The notes under the pieces: model-generated | The model's database searches: none | What the model was told of the DNA's origin: nothing | Seen by the model: the letters and a program-made list of their open reading frames with translations, nothing else | DNA from: Camillea tinctor | Taxonomy: Eukaryota > Ascomycota > Sordariomycetes > Xylariales > Xylariaceae | Direction of reading: 5' to 3' | Assembly: GCA_022578605.1 (NCBI GenBank) | Contig: MU394057.1 | Span: 434,001 to 498,000 of the forward strand | DNA length: 64,000 bases | Shown: positions 26,551 through 40,200 of the stretch, piece after piece | How positions within the stretch are numbered: the stretch's first letter is position 1 | Layout: the number at the start of each line of letters is the position of its first letter | Translations under genes and position numbers: made by a program

Positions 26551-29043
26551 CTATACCTCTTCACTAGCAACCGTCTCATACCCGCCTCTCCTGCGACCTA
26601 AGCCCATGTTCATAGCTGCGGGACTCTCATATATCTCGGTATAGTTGATACGCTGACCTCCAAGCATGGCATCACCTGTCTCTCGGCGGCCAAAAATAGG
26701 CGCCGGATCACACCAGAAATCGCGGCAGTTTTGGAGATATCCTTTGCTGTAGGGGTTCTTCTTCTTGCGCATCTTCTTTGCCGTTGCGGCTCCGCGGCCA
26801 GTTGCGGTCTCAATAAAGGTGTCGACGCCAAGGAGCCGGCCCCATTGCTGAAGGCATCCCCGGTGCTTGTGCGCATGGCCACCCCGTCCTGTCCCCAGTG
26901 GGTCAGCCGCCGCAGAAGGCGGCGCTGCCGCATCGGGATGATCAGGGTTGAGCGGGGCCCCAGTACTAGTGAATGCCGAGATCAGCGAGGATGCGGATCC
27001 ATCCTGGATGCCATACATGTTCTCGTAGGTGGTCATGGCACGGGCAACCTGCACGAATTGCACGAAGATAAGCATGCTGACCCAGGTGAGCTGCGCCGCG
27101 GCCCATATGCCAACCAATAGGGTATATGGGTCGGAATTGAGGACCCGGCAAAGTGATTCGGACAAGACAAGACATTCGGTCGATGCAGTCTGCGGTAATT
27201 CGGAAAAGTAGTAGTATAGCAGCCAGTCAAACGAGGAGACGCCAAAGATTAGGTTGATCAGATATAGGAAAAAATGGCGATGGTTATTCACGCCCACACA
27301 GTTGTTTACCCAGGGACAATGGCTAATGCTAATTAGTGGAGTTCGGGTTGATAAAAGCTTCATACCTAAGCCAAAGGGGAGACTTACTGGTCATGTTTAG
27401 CAACACAGCGCTGGCATCGCCGGCAGTGCTTGCTCCTCAGGGGCGTACGGATCATGCAAGTGACGCAAAAATTGGACTCATCGAATTTCCACAGGCTCAA
27501 TAGCTCATCGATGACAGCCTTCTGCTCGGCGATGCCGTTGAGCTTAGGAACAAATCCAGGATCGAAAACCATGCACACTGCGTAGAAGTAGGCCGTAAGC
27601 CCGTACCAAGTCACAAATAGGAGATTGAGTAAAGGGTGAGTCGGATAGGTTGCTGGATGCCCGTTAGCCAGTCTCCTGAGTAGTGTGGGATTCGCCTAGG
27701 TTGGGAATATATTTATTTACCTGGTAAGACCACTAGAAGCCATTGGACTCCAACCAAAAACAATGACGCTGCAAAGATACCCGCTAGCCACGGCTACACA
27801 CCTCCTGTCAGCACTGGATAATGACATGTCAATATGACATCTTAAGACACACGTACCGTCTTGTGCAGATGTCTCATATCAGGCGGCGCATACTCGAGAA
27901 TCTGATTAGTAATCCACTGGAAGCCAAAGCCGACCAGGAGAGCTAGGAAGACAGATATGAAGATGGGGAAGTGGGAGAGGATGGTTAGCTCGATCCACAG
28001 GAGGACGGTTGGCAGCAGGAAGAGGAACTTGTTCATAAACCCCCTCTTGTCCTTGAGGAAGAAGGACGAGCCTGGCCACCACGGAACGGCGGCATGGCCA
28101 TCCTCGTCATATCCACACTCGCGCAAAGCCCGATGCCAGGGGCCAGTAGTGTTCAGATCCTTGGCCGTGATGGCGGGGGTCTTGCCGGTGTCCGTCTTGG
28201 CAAATCTATCGGCGCCGTATTCTATGAGCTTGAGGATACACTGGGGCGAGCCCTTGACAAGTGCCCAATGCAAAGCCGTGAAGCCCTGCTCGTCCGTCGC
28301 GTGCACGCTGGCACCCCATCGCAGGAACAGGTCGACGCATTGCGGAAAGCCTTTGTAGGCAGCCCACATAAGACTGGTGTGGCCGTAAGCATCGGCCACG
28401 TCGACGGGAATGCCCTGGTGCAATAATAGCACGACCAATAGCGCATTGCCACTGAAGGTCGATATGTGTAGGGTGTTGTAACCTTGGGCATCGGTGATAA
28501 GAGGGTCGGCGCCGTGCTGGAGAAGCAGGTTTACGGTATAGTAATTGGATCGTTGCGCAGCCCATTGGAGGGGGGTTGCGATGGATTCGCCTCCTTTCTT
28601 GTTGATATCGGCGCCCTTCTCGATGAGGAACTTGCACATGCTGTACTGGTTGTTGATGGCGGACCACTAGAACAGAACAGAGCAGCTGAGTTAGCACCAT
28701 ACTATGGCTACGGGCCCGTTCGGGTTCGGGGGTACAGAGGAGACACAGGAACAGACAGATATGGAGAGAGAAGTAGAACACATACGTGTAGAGGGGTGAT
28801 GCCCTCGCTGTCGGTGTAGGTCGCATCGAAATCCGAAGACTCGAAGAGCTTCTCCATGGCGGGTATATCCCCCAGTCTGGCTATCTGCATGATGTCGGGT
28901 TCGGCGGGAGAAGCATCGTTCCCGGGAAGATTGCCCATCTCCATGTCTTGCGAGTTCAGCTTGGGAGTAGCAGCATTTCCCTTGGAAGAGGGCTGTATGG
29001 GAGCACCGTTGGAGGTGCCATTGGGCAATGCGCTTTGCGACAT
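26551..29043 (-). CDS. AKR1: Akr1-type ankyrin-repeat DHHC palmitoyltransferase
   Basis: Five exons: 29043-28786, 28666-27857, 27793-27721, 27652-27388 and 27322-26551. All introns are GT-AG with consistent phases, giving 725 residues. The N-terminal 60 residues are disordered. About five or six ankyrin repeats follow (for example [80 protein letters not shown]). Next come four to six membrane segments around a cysteine-rich domain ([19 protein letters not shown]). The catalytic DHHC is at residues 468-471 in [13 protein letters not shown], and its codons are split by the last intron. The enzyme S-acylates membrane-associated proteins such as casein kinases and endocytosis factors, in Golgi or early endosomes. 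The C-terminal tail carries [20 protein letters not shown], as in other fungal Akr1 proteins. Domain order and length match the family. Confidence 0.95.
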
Positions 29044-33874: not shown

Positions 33875-36191
33875 TGTCGGGTTTGTCGCGATGCGATTTG
33901 GTAGCTTAAGCTCCTAGTATATAAATAATAGGTGTGGTGATGGTGGTGGTGGTGGCGGTGGCCGGTGTTGTTATGTTGCGGTGTACAACAACAAAGTATA
34001 TAAGTTGTAAGGTTGTAAGAAGGAGGAAGAAAGGGGAAAAAGGGAAGAACTTAAAAAATAAGAAAGAGAAAAAAAAATAAAAAGAGGAAAGAATAAGAAA
34101 AAAAAAACTTTCGACCGTCTGATGTTTATTCGGTACCTAAACTAGTAGGTACAAAGCAAGTTGTAGGTAAGACTTCGGCTTTGAATACCTACTACTAAAT
34201 ACTAATTAACCACTCTTGTCCCTTCCATGGGAGGCAAAGAAGAGAAAAAAAGGTAGGTATGAGGCAAGAAGTGGGAAGAATTGCCCCACCAAAATGCCGA
34301 TGATATGCGCTGCAGGAACCGTTAGAAACTCTTATAGATTAGCGTTACCGGCTGTTACCGAAACTCAAAAATTACTTAGGGGGGTTTGGTAGCAGGTCGA
34401 TGCCATACCTAAATACTGGAGATAATAGATATAAAGACTAAGCTGGCTACTCTCGATCATATTCGGTTCCAGCTCAAATTATACATATTCAAACATGCAT
34501 TTTTATCATTGCACATAACCCCGATATATTCTAGAATATACACTTCTTATTGTTTTATCTCTATAAAAAACATCCCGGTTTGCTCTTAGTATTGTATTAC
34601 TAGGTAGAACATGTATAATTGATCTAAAAACTACATGTGACAAGGGGTCATAGCTTGGAACAAAGAGTCATATTCAACTAATAATTCTCTTATGGTCTCA
34701 AGGAGTCTTAAGGTTCTAAGTTCTCCTGGATCCCATGTCGAGAATAATGCTCCTATTTATACACATACATTAAAAGCCTGAGGCATCCATTCCTTATGCA
34801 AGGTGGTTATCCATAAGCATGACCAATACATATGGTCCGAAACAGGGTATCATATTTACCAGCCTTGGCAGTGTCCACGTATGACACTACAAGTTTATAA
34901 TATTTAATTATACAAGTTATATCAGCCTTTACATGAGGAATCCTGTGAACTATCAGTGCCATTGAGTGACGAGAAACTGATATCACTAGTGATGAGAGTA
35001 TCTACAAATTGTCTGCACGAATGAATAATAACAAAGTTCGAACTAGTTGCGATTCTTGTCTATAATATAGAAATATGGTATCCTAATATAAGTTCTACGT
35101 TAAAAACAGACATATTCATGGCTCATCGAGCTGGCATAACTTCCGCCACAGATGCATTTTCCGGCGTAGACTTCATCTTCAAGGTCTGAGATGTTCATGT
35201 CTATGTTATTACCCATGCCTCTTTAGGACCAGGGGGGGGGGCATTGTATAAGAAACGGGTCGACGAGGGCATCCGGAATAGATAAGAAGCTCTTAAAGAA
35301 AACAGTAGAGAGGCGAAGTGAGGAATGGGCATATAAGAAGGACTACCATTAATGAAAACATTTATTTATTTCAAGTGTCGGTGAGTTACTGTGTGTCGGT
35401 TTAAGGGGGAAATGTGAACCTAGTCTATTCCTCTAGGGAAAGTAACCCATATCATGTTTGGATTTCCCCAAGGCCTCGCAAAATTAGGTTGAATACTGTA
35501 CACGAAAGACCTCGGCTTCGATTGTTTATTGGCTATATTATCATCTACGCTATACTGTAACAATTCTTACGTGGTTGTACAAACTCGTGTAGGAACCTTT
35601 CTATAAGACATTCCTCATGAGAAGTAATGACCTGGAGAAGTTACCCAGAGTATAAAAGCTATCATCCATGTTCTTGTAAATATAACACGGTTAGTACCTA
35701 CCTAGTAAGCATTTAAGTTTCTTCTTTGTCGTACGAAGTCAAATTTCGTGCCAATGTCATAAGTCGTTGGAGTCCCGTTTAATTTGTTATGAATATTATC
35801 CAAGATTGGAGATAGCATTGGAAGTCAGCGGCTTCGACAAGCTTCTTTCAGAACTCATTAGGAGATGATTTAAGTTGTACCTTATTATTTTTAGTTACAA
35901 ACCCGTAATACTAACTGTACTAAACATTATCCATCATATTGATTACATTGCATGCATTACAGTATATCCCGGTGAAGCTATCCACATCTAATATGCGTAG
36001 ATTTTATGAACATGAATGGCACTTGAAAATTCAGACATTAAGCTGCCAAGACTAATCAATTCTCTCCTTTCTCATTCTTACTAAGCTTACTGCCTTTTTC
36101 TTTGTGAAAGCTTACGGCAGACGAGTTTCGCAACATCCGTGCTGATTATCGGCTGTCTATAGCCTCGTTTAAAAACTCGCCGAATATTCAC
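33875..36191. other. Long AT-rich gene-free region
   Basis: Starts with the synthase leader (GGTGGT-rich run at 33935-33963 and the purine tract at 34018-34109). From about 34300 onward AT-rich DNA has stops in all frames and no relics that I can recognise. A G9 run lies near 35233. The two tRNA-Ala genes follow. Confidence 0.5.
34018..34109 (-). promoter_or_regulatory. Pyrimidine tract upstream of cystathionine beta-synthase
   Basis: On the transcribed strand this is a roughly 90-bp CT-rich run 145-235 bp before the ATG, typical of strong constitutive fungal promoters. No sulfur-regulator site was identified with confidence. Confidence 0.4.
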
Positions 36192-36341
36192 GGGCTTGTG
36201 GTTTAGTGGTGTAAGTTCACACTTTGAAAAAATTCAGTCTATCGCAATCCGAGCAATAACTAATTCAGCTATTAGATAATACTCCCTTCGCATCTTTCGG
36301 CAGTTTGGGAGGGGTCCGGGGTTCGATTCCCCGCGAGTCCA
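36192..36341 (+). tRNA. tRNA-Ala(CGC) with a GT-AG insert in the D-loop and an anticodon intron
   Basis: Acceptor GGGCTTG (36192-36198) pairs with CGAGTCC (36334-36340), including G3-U70, the alanine identity pair, and discriminator A36341. Box A is TGGTTTAGTGG and box B is GGTTCGATTCC. The anticodon stem CTCCC (36282-36286) pairs with GGGAG (36307-36311). The loop TTCGCA holds anticodon CGC at 36289-36291. A 13-nt canonical intron follows at 36293-36305. An additional 65-nt insert (36211-36275) lies in the D-loop after U20. It starts GTAAGT, contains ACTAAT, and ends ATTAG. Removing both gives 72 nt, exactly the size of the neighbour at 37104. The D-stem then has U12-A23 where the neighbour has C12-G23, a compensatory change. 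A T6 Pol III terminator is at 36347-36352. It could also be a pseudogene. Confidence 0.75.
36211..36275 (+). other. Spliceosomal-type insert inside the tRNA-Ala(CGC) D-loop
   Basis: 65 nt with a perfect GTAAGT donor, a CTAAT branch-like site about 14 nt before a TTAG acceptor, and AT-rich interior. It contains a direct repeat AATTCAG(T)CTAT (36231-36242 and 36262-36272). CTAAT and ATTAG at its end can form a short hairpin. Its boundaries are unambiguous: no shift by one base leaves the tRNA intact. There is no obvious target duplication. Confidence 0.65.
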
Positions 36342-36346
36342 TCTTC

Positions 36347-36352
36347 TTTTTT
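36347..36352 (+). terminator. Pol III T6 terminator of tRNA-Ala(CGC)
   Basis: Six T residues five bases after the discriminator base; a further T5 follows at 36362-36366. Confidence 0.65.
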
Positions 36353-37103
36353 CCTTATTTCTTTTTGGTTCATCATCTACGAAGAAACTATTTCCTGAGT
36401 CTATCATCACTCGTAATTATTATGAACGTGACCTTGAAGTTGTTCATCCATCCTCGGGGGATGTCGATATTGACAACTACGATATTTTTAACTATCAATT
36501 GGGTTGTATCAGTATACTATAGTAGATGTATAGCCCCCTTTTTAATTCATTTCGTATACTCGTACACTCTCAACTAACTACCATCTGCTTACATGTGTAG
36601 TTATATATTTCCCCGAGAAACTCAATCAATATGCAGAGTCATGTCAAGAGCAGGTAGTCTCCACAGCTAATTATTCAGAAACAAACCCTTCATGAGTGAA
36701 CAAGATGCGATCCTTAAGTTTCCTAGAGGAATAGGATCCAGTTCTGGCTCAACAACTGTTTTATTTCGTTTCTTTCAATATATCAATTGGCCAATGAGAG
36801 GCGAACATTCATAGAACCCAAGAACTGAAGGTTAAAAAACATTGCAATAACATTGTGGCTCTTTGATAAACTCAGGGTTAAGGACGCTACTGTCATCTAG
36901 CTCATTACAACTGATCCGCCTCGATAGAGCTAATATAGCTTGTGGGATGGTTCTTCCTAGTGGGAAACTTTTTTCTATAAACCCAAAGTGTTTATTTGCA
37001 CTGACAAGCTTGCTCTACATAGAGAGCAATAATCAAATCACTCGCCATCGACCAAGAAAGCTAGCTGATCCCCAGGACAGCAAGCGGTCACTTCAAACAA
37101 ACA

Positions 37104-37236
37104 GGGCTTGTGGTCTAGTGGTATGATTCTTCCTTAGCACTGATGAGGCTTTTCTACGAAAGAGGTTTAACCTCTACATCGTGAGACCACATCGTGAACT
37201 TGGAAGAGGTCCGGGGTTCAATTCCCCGCGAGTCCA
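37104..37236 (+). tRNA. tRNA-Ala(AGC) with a 61-nt anticodon-loop intron
   Basis: Acceptor GGGCTTG (37104-37110) pairs with CGAGTCC (37229-37235), again with G3-U70, and A37236 is the discriminator. D-arm TGGTCTAGTGGTATGA, anticodon stem CTTCC (37129-37133) with GGAAG (37202-37206), loop TTAGCA with anticodon AGC at 37136-37138, T-arm CGGGG/TTCAATT/CCCCG. The intron (37140-37200) sits one base after the anticodon, the canonical place, but is long for a fungal tRNA. It has an AGAGGTTTAACCTCT hairpin and a repeated ACATCGTGA. Mature length is 72 nt. T4 and T5 runs at 37247-37250 and 37255-37259 end transcription. AGC decodes GCU/GCC/GCA after A34-to-I editing. Confidence 0.82.
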
Positions 37237-40200
37237 GTGATCTCTCTTTTCCTCTTTTTGGGTTTTGCCCTACCTTTTTTTTTTTTCAACCGCCGTTAGT
37301 GAAATCCACGATCCACTACCTCGACTGATATTGTGCTTCGACTAGCCCTAGTTCACCTAACCCAGATGGGTTTGAGCTAAGTGGGGCTAGATCTGTAACT
37401 AAAGTCATAGAGAGGGAGAAAGTTCAGCCCGCATGTAGTATAAATAGTGTTAGACAGGTATTATTACAGCTATCGTCTATTTCCTAATATATAACCATCT
37501 ACAATGATGACCACTGGTCTTGTAGTATCCCGGTCATATTGGCCCCCCTGAGAGGCAATTGTATCAATCGTTCTTTAACTATACCAGATGAAAAGAGACG
37601 CTCAAGTCTCAAGTTTCCGAAGCAAAAGCTGATTGAATAAAAAACTAGACTTTGAAGGGTTTAAAGGACTACAACAGAACAACCTACCCCGTATTTGTAA
37701 CTACCTGGGTAAATCGAACAAGAATTATGGCATAAACCATTCTTTTACAATGGGCGTGTATACCAAGGTAACTTTTGTCTATGATGGGAGTTATTGTAAC
37801 TTCCGGCAGTGTAAATACGGGGTTCTTATTCTACAGACTTGGAAGATATATTGTGAATATACCCTTTTTAGGACTAAGGGTATTACTTGAAGATACGCAT
37901 TATTATACTGTTGGTCTTCAACTTATTGATATACTCTGAAGAGACGATGTTTTTGGTTCAAATGCAGTGCCTTCTGTCTACGATTGTCTTCTAATGAGAG
38001 CAATCCTCAAAATGGAAAGATGCCCCCCCCCCCCCCCTTTTTTTTTTTTACTTCCACACCTCTACCAAGTACAGGGAGTAGAATTAGCATATCGGCCTCA
38101 TGATCCGTTGTTGTCATACTTTAAGACATTTGAACCCCCTTACGGAGTTAGTTTTATATGCTGAACACATAATATTTAGCATATCGTATCCAAGATATCT
38201 CTGCTTAGCGATGACTCTGTGGGCATTGCTTGGCTGTTGCTATTAGATTGATCTGTTATAGAAACAACTTGCACCTTTTGTCCATTTTGCCCAACTCCTC
38301 ATCCTTTTTTTTTCTGCAAATTGATGTCGAACAAGATCACTTCTCCATATTCATAAACACCTCCTCATACAATTTGGCCGGCTTGAAACGACGGTGCCGT
38401 ACTAAAGCACATGAAGGAGTGTGTTGTGTATTCCCGGTGTCTCTGGCATGACTTACTGTCCCAAGTCGAACCAATCTAGGACCCTTGATACTCATACTCA
38501 TTTCGTGCCTGGACACAAGGCGTGCATCTGTGTGTAGTGACACTATGACCCTGCCGATGGAAACCTTTTAATTTTTAAGACACTGTGTAAGTGGTGTATA
38601 GAATACCAACGTATAGACAGGGCAGGGTGACATAGGCGTTTTCATTATACGTTACACAATGCATGTATACCCAGACGGGTTTCTACATATGAGATTGACA
38701 GGTGTCTCGAAACGGCGCGGGTCCTCACACACCCTTTTAAGTCCATTATCCTCAAGTAAGCGTGAATTTTGATATCGAAAGCCATGTAATTTGAGGCGTC
38801 GGATCGTCGATATATATCCATGTTCGGTAAATCTCTCGAGTGTCAATGACATAAGCCGCTGTTCTACGGCATATCCCACGTGAAATATCAAACCCCGATC
38901 TCTGGATGGTTAGCACACGCTTACTTCTTATTGACTGATTGTCCACTATTTTGTCGTTCTTATGCAGGTGAGAGTGAGCTGGCTCAAATGGATGATGGTC
39001 CCTAGGGGTAAGTTGGTATGCTGTGCTATCCCGACGGGCGAATGATGTCTACACTGCTACTGTTTGACGTTAGTGGCTTCATAAAGTCCGAAGGTCCCAC
39101 GGGATATAGCTCGTTGAATAATTTCCGGACTCACCAAATCCAGGTCTCATATCATCATATGACGCTTTTGGGCGCAACCCGGGTTTATCACACCAGTGAA
39201 CGAGTACGGTGCACCCGACTGCAAGGCGCAGGTATTGGAAATGCAATACACGTAGATTTCTTAACCCCTCCTTTCCTTGTTTCCCGTCCCATGGATGAGT
39301 TGGCACACAACTTATGGACGAATCCGAAGAGTAACGTTCAAGTTGAACATGGATGTGTAAGCAAGGCTTTCCGAGGCTCTGCGAGGTGTGTGCGTGCGTG
39401 CGTACGCGGTGTCAGATAGCTTTCAAAGAGGCGTTTTCGTATTTACGAACTTGACTGACGCGTTGCATGCAAGGAGGGCTGCGGAACCGCTTCCTATTTT
39501 CGACGTTGCTGCATTTTATGACTGCAGTAGATTGCATGCTGTATGTATTGTTCTCCCACGGTTCGATCGGCATATATTCGATGTTCTCTCGAACAGTTCC
39601 CGGCTTGATGTTCCGAGTTAATAAACAGCTAACTACCTGCTTGGACTAAAAATAACGTTTCTCACGTCACAGAGCTGGGTTTGGAAAGCAATATTCACGA
39701 GGTAGTATCGGAAGATGTTGAATGGGAGTTGAGATCGCTGGTTGCGGTAGCTAGCCGCTCCATCAAGCGTTGTAAGGTCGTTTCAGAGCCCAGACAAGGC
39801 TGGACACAAACTCTGGATGCGCGTATCGCTAGCCATCTTCACATGGCCAACAGTAAACGGGAATGAGGGTAGAGCAAACTGAAAGTTTGCTAACAGGTCG
39901 CATTCCAACAGACCGCTCATTGCCGTCATGCTCTACCCTCGGTGTTGCCGTAGCCACCCAGGGGGTGCACCCGAATATCATTAAACAAATTCCAATATTT
40001 GGCGTGAGTTAACCAAATATGGCGGGGAACGATGGGATAGAGCTACTCTATTGATGTCGCGAAGAGGGGACCGTATGCATGAGAAGGCTGAATAACTCTT
40101 TCGTGCTTGACGGCCAAGCAGGAGGAATGGAGCATTGGTATTGGCCAGAGAAACGACAGGAATGAAGCTAACGGGGGAGCGGGCATCGTGCAAGCGTTTA

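Follow-up and report, generated by a model that had tools for sequence, protein, structure and literature searches.

At least six tRNA genes of this fungus are interrupted by short inserts that, with a probability we put at about 0.88, are U2-type spliceosomal introns settled in genes of RNA polymerase III (Pol III). We assign the inserts to this class by their sequence features, and their removal as lariats by the spliceosome is a prediction. In textbooks, tRNA introns lie at position 37/38 and a protein endonuclease excises them. In this genome, six tRNA genes hold introns of another class, and three of these genes carry two introns of two classes. Eukaryotic tRNA genes have been described as limited to one intron in the tRNAscan-SE 2.0 paper (PMC8450103). 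The anatomy of the six genes suggests a role for the spliceosome in tRNA production in this fungus. We found no earlier report of spliceosomal or mRNA-type introns in tRNA genes in the open-licence PMC literature, and an earlier report is possible.

One of the six genes lies in the window, the whole 64-kb stretch of DNA analysed here (C7:434001-498000), and the genome searched comprises 44,688,122 bases in 154 contigs. A cystathionine beta-synthase gene in the window is 94% identical to that of Biscogniauxia mediterranea and 91% to that of B. marginata; for a second protein, the nearest matches come from B. mediterranea (75%) and Biscogniauxia sp. FL1348 (70%). On these matches the fungus is probably a Biscogniauxia or a near relative within the Xylariales. 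The features of the window that matter here, with the interrupted gene and its parts first, are the following:

36192-36341, + strand: tRNA-Ala(CGC) gene, read from the sequence and matched by Rfam RF00005
36192-36210, + strand: exon 1, with the acceptor 5' strand, the D-stem 5' strand and the D loop to position 20
36199-36209, + strand: Pol III box A TGGTTTAGTGG, which we take to fit the box A consensus; intact, just 5' of the insert
36211-36275, + strand: 65-nt intron of spliceosomal type at position 20/21; an Ala paralogue on contig C45 has one at the same position with similar signals
36211-36216, + strand: donor GTAAGT of the insert
36260-36264, + strand: putative branch CTAAT of the insert, with its A at 36263, 12 nt from the 3' end
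36272-36275, + strand: acceptor TTAG of the insert
36276-36292, + strand: exon 2, from A21 to A37, with the anticodon CGC
36293-36305, + strand: canonical 13-nt anticodon-loop intron (37/38) of the tRNA-endonuclease type
36306-36341, + strand: exon 3, with the anticodon 3' strand, the T arm and the acceptor 3' strand with U70 and A73
36320-36330 (C7:470320-470330), + strand: Pol III box B GGTTCGATTCC
36347-36352, + strand: run of six T, a likely Pol III terminator, 6 nt past the gene
37104-37236, + strand: neighbouring tRNA-Ala(AGC) gene, 133 nt overall, with a long anticodon-loop intron and without a D-loop insert
27323-27387, - strand: 65-nt intron of a DHHC palmitoyltransferase gene, GTAAGT...CACTAATTAGCATTAG, whose removal restores the protein reading

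The sequence-only reading had described a tRNA-Ala(CGC) gene with a 65-nt GTAAGT...CTAAT...TTAG insert in the D loop and a separate 13-nt anticodon intron, the removal of both leaving an intact tRNA of 72 nt. This description is confirmed by the sequence and by a local cmscan match to RF00005 over 36192-36341 (34.7 bits with the region searched alone; gathering score 29). The small intron lies at 36293-36305, the joined exons measure 72 nt, and ARAGORN calls Ala(cgc) once the insert is removed. The G3-U70 pair, both Pol III boxes and the D-stem pair U12-A23, which is C12-G23 in the neighbouring gene, likewise read as had been proposed. Together with the cloverleaf and the terminator run, they give the window gene the full sequence anatomy of a tRNA-Ala gene, and its transcription, processing and charging are predicted from that anatomy. 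Standard scans overlook the gene: the Rfam tRNA model did not report it when the whole window was scanned, and ARAGORN called zero tRNA genes across the 64 kb. A check for further Ala(CGC) genes had also been suggested, and our tRNA census of the genome, which is incomplete, holds none.

The case for spliceosomal introns does not depend on the window gene alone. The other five interrupted genes, each on a contig of its own, are:

C45:312558-312699: tRNA-Ala(AGC), 57-nt insert at 20/21, GTAAGC...CTGAC...ACAG, plus a 13-nt anticodon intron
C18: tRNA-Lys(CUU), 61-nt insert at 52/53, GTAAGT...TTAAC...CTAG
C66: tRNA-Lys(CUU), 66-nt insert at 52/53, GTTAGT...CTAAC...ACAG
C60: tRNA-Lys(CUU), 63-nt insert at 52/53, GTGAGT...CTGAC...ATAG
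C95: tRNA-Met, 68-nt insert at 59/60, GTAAGT...CTAAC...TCAG, plus a 29-nt anticodon intron

The inserts thus interrupt the D loop in both Ala genes, the T stem in the three Lys genes and the T loop in the Met gene. The C45 gene was found by a DNA search with the window gene, which it matched as two separated pieces. The broken T stem of the Lys genes, between G52 and G53, was recognised by reading 63 tRNA or tRNA-like places, and extra flank made three such genes clear. The C95 gene was the sole match ending short of the gene end in a query of 22 tRNA genes of this genome, and an Rfam scan with E up to 0.1 did not report it. After removal of the insert, and with the anticodon introns left in, ARAGORN names the correct isotype in all six cases; before removal it finds nothing in four and a wrong isotype in two, so similar genes may be hidden in other fungi.

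Uninterrupted paralogues show what the joined products would look like, and the exons are 92-100% identical to them overall. At C48:182405-182476, a gene with neither insert nor anticodon intron reads GTGGTATAATA, the exact predicted join, which fixes the boundary of the window insert. This gene differs from the window gene at 4 of 72 letters and from the C45 gene at 6 of 72; exon 1 of the window gene is identical to it in 19/19 letters and to the C45 paralogue in 18/19. The intronless C48 gene (L022), close in sequence to the interrupted Ala genes, has the anticodon GGC, which to our knowledge is unusual for Ala among eukaryotes. Between the two interrupted Ala genes, 5 of 72 exon letters differ, namely the anticodon, one variable-loop letter and three letters that keep stem pairs. 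Pair 6-67, which flanks the insert, is U-G in the window gene and C-G in C45, and one T-stem pair has turned from G-C to A-U with both sides changed. A run of six T follows each of these two genes.

The Lys and Met genes follow the same pattern. Four Lys(CUU) genes (L050-L053) have an uninterrupted T arm and an 8-nt anticodon intron, which the C18, C66 and C60 genes are without. Once joined, these three differ from L050, its anticodon intron omitted, at 0, 0 and 1 of 73 letters, and Lys exons are 99-100% identical between copies. All Lys inserts finish with AG immediately ahead of GTTCGA, so box B stays complete in the DNA as GGTTCGACCCC, its first G coming from the intron. The joined Met gene differs from the uninterrupted copy on C14 at 3 of the 74 letters compared; its pair 6-67, one side on each side of the insert, is G-C in C95 and C-G in C14, both sides having changed. 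In a separate observation, the 3' trailer CAATTCC..., in which a hairpin precedes a T run, is common to the three interrupted Lys genes (L171-L173). By eye, both arms of this hairpin appear to have changed together, and the ordinary genes L050-L053 have the start of the same trailer.

These comparisons bear on whether the interrupted genes are alive. The sequence-only reading had left two options: either the insert is removed by another route (the spliceosome or an unknown one), or an inserted element has inactivated the gene. The second option, extended to failed introns and to all six loci, would make them pseudogenes, the customary interpretation of D- or T-arm insertions in eukaryotic tRNA genes (excerpt of PMC4090602). 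Lys(CUU) has four ordinary copies and Met two, which makes the interrupted ones dispensable in principle, and Ala(UGC) could decode GCG through wobble. Against this, the exons are intact in all six genes whereas the insert bodies have diverged, the exon differences between the two Ala genes mostly keep pairs, boxes A and B survive in the interrupted Ala and Lys genes, and the T runs follow both Ala genes. Because the exons are conserved with pair-preserving changes while the inserts diverge, the dead-gene option is disfavoured, and we regard it as very unlikely. Removal by a route other than the endonuclease is well supported, since five more tRNA genes have similar splice signals and paralogues show the exact joined sequence.

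Each of the six inserts is bounded by GT and AG, starts with a donor of fungal type (GTAAGT in three, GTAAGC, GTTAGT and GTGAGT in one each) and has a putative branch sequence 11-15 nt before its 3' end. The boundary is unique for the Ala genes; Lys and Met allow a few registers, one of which gives GT-AG. In excerpts of PMC5832005, introns of fungal U3 genes follow the consensus GTRWGT, RCTRAC and YAG, and fungal introns generally have RCTRAY with 6-36 nt from branch to acceptor. Two of the branch sequences, CTAAT of the window gene and TTAAC of C18, depart from the most frequent forms. CTAAT is very probably a working branch site, because the DHHC intron of the window has the same CTAAT together with TTAG. 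Insert lengths (57-68 nt) are close to those of the host introns in the DHHC gene (65 nt) and the U6 gene (60 nt), which are two yardsticks only.

Random fragments of the window of equal length have GT...AG ends in about 0.4% of draws (200,000 for each of five inserts and 400,000 for Met). The full consensus of donor, branch and acceptor occurs at frequencies of 0 to 4.75e-5, with 3.5e-5 for the window insert; these figures flatter the result, as the consensus was written after the inserts had been seen and the donor pattern was widened to cover GTTAGT. For this reason, and because loci of the same isotype may share ancestry, they should not be multiplied. The stronger argument is the recurrence of the signals at five other loci. 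Alignments of the insert cores reached the observed score in 267 of 300 shuffles for the window and C45 inserts, 20/300 for C18 and C66, 45/300 for C18 and C60, and 119/300 for C66 and C60, so only C18/C66 hints at residual likeness. The tetramer TTTT is absent from the five Ala and Lys inserts, yet not significantly so in shuffles (P about 0.26), and on that figure we dropped the idea of Pol III selection on the inserts.

Other kinds of insert were considered and rejected. Group I and group II introns need more than 57-68 nt, and Rfam gave no such match over 35900-37500 up to E = 5 or at the other five loci up to E 0.1. A transposable element was set aside on the grounds that a DNA search of the genome, with a tool that skips very common words, found no other copy of the window insert body. 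An assembly error was dismissed in view of six loci on six contigs with differing insert bodies.

A further explanation would keep the inserts within the known enzymology of tRNA, as ectopic introns that the tRNA splicing endonuclease would excise at a bulge-helix-bulge, as in Cyanidioschyzon merolae. Introns at 20/21 are indeed known from C. merolae and from archaea (PMC3978253 and PMC4090602, in excerpt). In the strict register, the four possible central pairs form in the window gene, without an inner or outer helix run; the count falls to 1 in C45, 1 in C18, 2 in C66, 2 in C60 and 0 in C95 (for C95, central pairs only were counted). When looser registers were applied to five genes, both Ala genes formed four central pairs; an outer run of three accompanied them, but the inner run was one in one gene and absent in the other. 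The Lys genes reached at best three central pairs, with inner runs of two or three. A complete motif was found in none of the six inserts in the strict register and in none of the five genes in looser ones. Moreover, a bulge-helix-bulge leaves the donor, branch and acceptor signals of all six inserts unexplained, and cleavage by the yeast endonuclease is reported to be confined to 37/38 (excerpt of PMC4033280). We give this explanation hardly any credence.

The inserts might also be spliceosomal introns that are spliced from Pol II read-through transcripts or other non-tRNA host RNAs, with no role in the supply of mature tRNA. Spliceosomes do act mainly on Pol II RNAs. On the other hand, each intron joins the tRNA halves exactly, the internal promoters are kept, the T run lies 6 nt past the window gene, and no open reading frame of at least 150 aa in the list for the window overlaps it. 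In addition, the single U6 gene found in this genome (L192, C10:489447-489606), a Pol III gene, carries such an intron, of 60 nt, with GTAAGT...CTAAC...ACAG. We consider splicing outside the tRNA pathway quite improbable. The U6 intron also contains a box B-like sequence, GTTCGAATC.

Under the reading that we prefer, spliceosomal introns within functional tRNA genes, Pol III would transcribe the whole window gene from the internal boxes A and B to the T run, and the spliceosome would excise the 65-nt intron while the precursor is still in the nucleus. Only after this loss would the D arm, or the T arm at other genes, be able to fold. RNase P and RNase Z would then trim the ends, and the tRNA endonuclease would remove the 13-nt anticodon intron, as it would the corresponding introns of the C45 Ala and Met genes. 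Since the tRNA endonuclease and export factors recognise the folded tRNA body, the spliceosome presumably acts before them. The whole course, from transcription through spliceosomal removal and the succession of steps to the use of the products in translation, is predicted from the DNA.

More tentatively, and at somewhat less than even chances, the spliceosome may be a regular second tRNA-splicing machine in this fungus. Introns would have been gained independently at at least three positions and kept where the Pol III boxes survive, three genes would need both machines, and tRNA supply would be coupled to the spliceosome. As U6 itself needs splicing, spliceosome activity would then be coupled to the supply of particular tRNAs. 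Should the spliceosome process these precursors, its substrates would be short Pol III transcripts, presumably without a cap and with a 5' exon of as little as 19 nt, and would cleanly test the requirements of exon definition and of the cap. Furthermore, tRNA hosts offer intron gains where the exons cannot drift.

Our census comprises 93 tRNA or tRNA-like places (63 + 6 Ala + 3 + 5 + 16 from successive searches), 18 of which are known as match spans only (C46, C10:191071 and the sixteen from the last query); several of the 63 first listed look like repeats or organellar copies. Inserts of the GT-AG kind occur in 6 of the 93, a lower bound, since some isotypes, Asn, Thr and Cys among them, did not turn up at all. 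A further query with multiple tRNAs returned the Lys genes, again split, and no new split gene except Ala(AGC) genes with long anticodon introns. In four Ala(AGC) genes (37104-37236 and L023, L024 and L025 on C2, C6 and C34), the anticodon-loop intron measures 61, 33, 50 and 59 nt, longer than in most tRNAs of this genome that we encountered. Among eight approximate query pieces, those for Phe, Gly and, weakly, Pro matched uninterrupted or anticodon-intron-sized spans; the silence of the other five means little, given how approximate the pieces were.

Pattern searches added no further case. Two patterns of box A plus donor matched 55 and 45 places, against 60 and 34 for controls, and the letters were examined for 40/55 and 41/45. 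A box-B-like match lay downstream in 8 of 80 loci (L091-L170), one being the window gene; by eye, the other seven do not look like tRNA, a provisional verdict for L146 (near C24:243374-243391), the most T-arm-like of them, which has GTCAGATTCAAATCTGAC about 60 nt downstream of its box A-like match. Of eighteen regions with box B, ten held one and the same repeat, three were ordinary tRNA genes and five were something else. Sites resembling 52/53 numbered 28 (control 21), and the seven read included the three Lys genes and four that are not tRNA by eye or Rfam. Sites resembling 59/60 numbered 24 (control 26), and the four read were C95 and three that are not tRNA by eye. Searches of IMG/VR gave two unrelated matches and then none. 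A dispersed repeat (L177, L179, L180, L182-L184, L186, L187, L189, L190) that ends in or near TGTAGGTTCGATTCCTATGAGCGCTATTGGTATCTT has a motif resembling box B and is a candidate tRNA-derived SINE. A second, tRNA-like repeat family (L081, L084, L085, L087, L090) with a similar 3' flank, GCTTGTTTGTTAAAGTGTA, is a possible SINE.

Several known systems resemble these genes in part. Non-canonical eukaryotic tRNA introns have been placed in C. merolae and in nucleomorphs, where introns interrupt the D and T arms, at 20/21 among other positions, and a single tRNA gene may hold more than one (excerpts of PMC3978253, PMC4090602 and PMC4033280). However, the introns of C. merolae use a bulge-helix-bulge, those of Guillardia measure 3-24 nt, and excerpts of PMC3978253 and PMC4090602 describe both groups without donor, branch or acceptor signals. 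Spliceosomal introns outside protein genes are known from fungal U3 snoRNA genes and lichen rDNA; these are other RNA classes, and the excerpts of PMC5832005 and PMC8527467 mention no tRNA case. In the Xylariales, the sister stwintrons of Hypoxylon document recent gain and spread of spliceosomal introns, but as nested introns of protein genes, with no mention of tRNA in the main text (PMC9024468). The window gene has a canonical 37/38 intron of its own, from which the 65-nt insert differs in position, signals and presumed enzyme. An mRNA-type intron in U6 snRNA genes was reportedly described by Tani and Ohshima in 1989 and Canzler et al. in 2016, in fission yeast and several fungal lineages. 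Such U6 introns, one of which this genome has, are alike in being U2-type GT-AG introns in a short Pol III RNA gene. Unlike U6, the host here is a tRNA, with internal promoters and a cloverleaf, and in three genes it carries a second intron of the endonuclease type.
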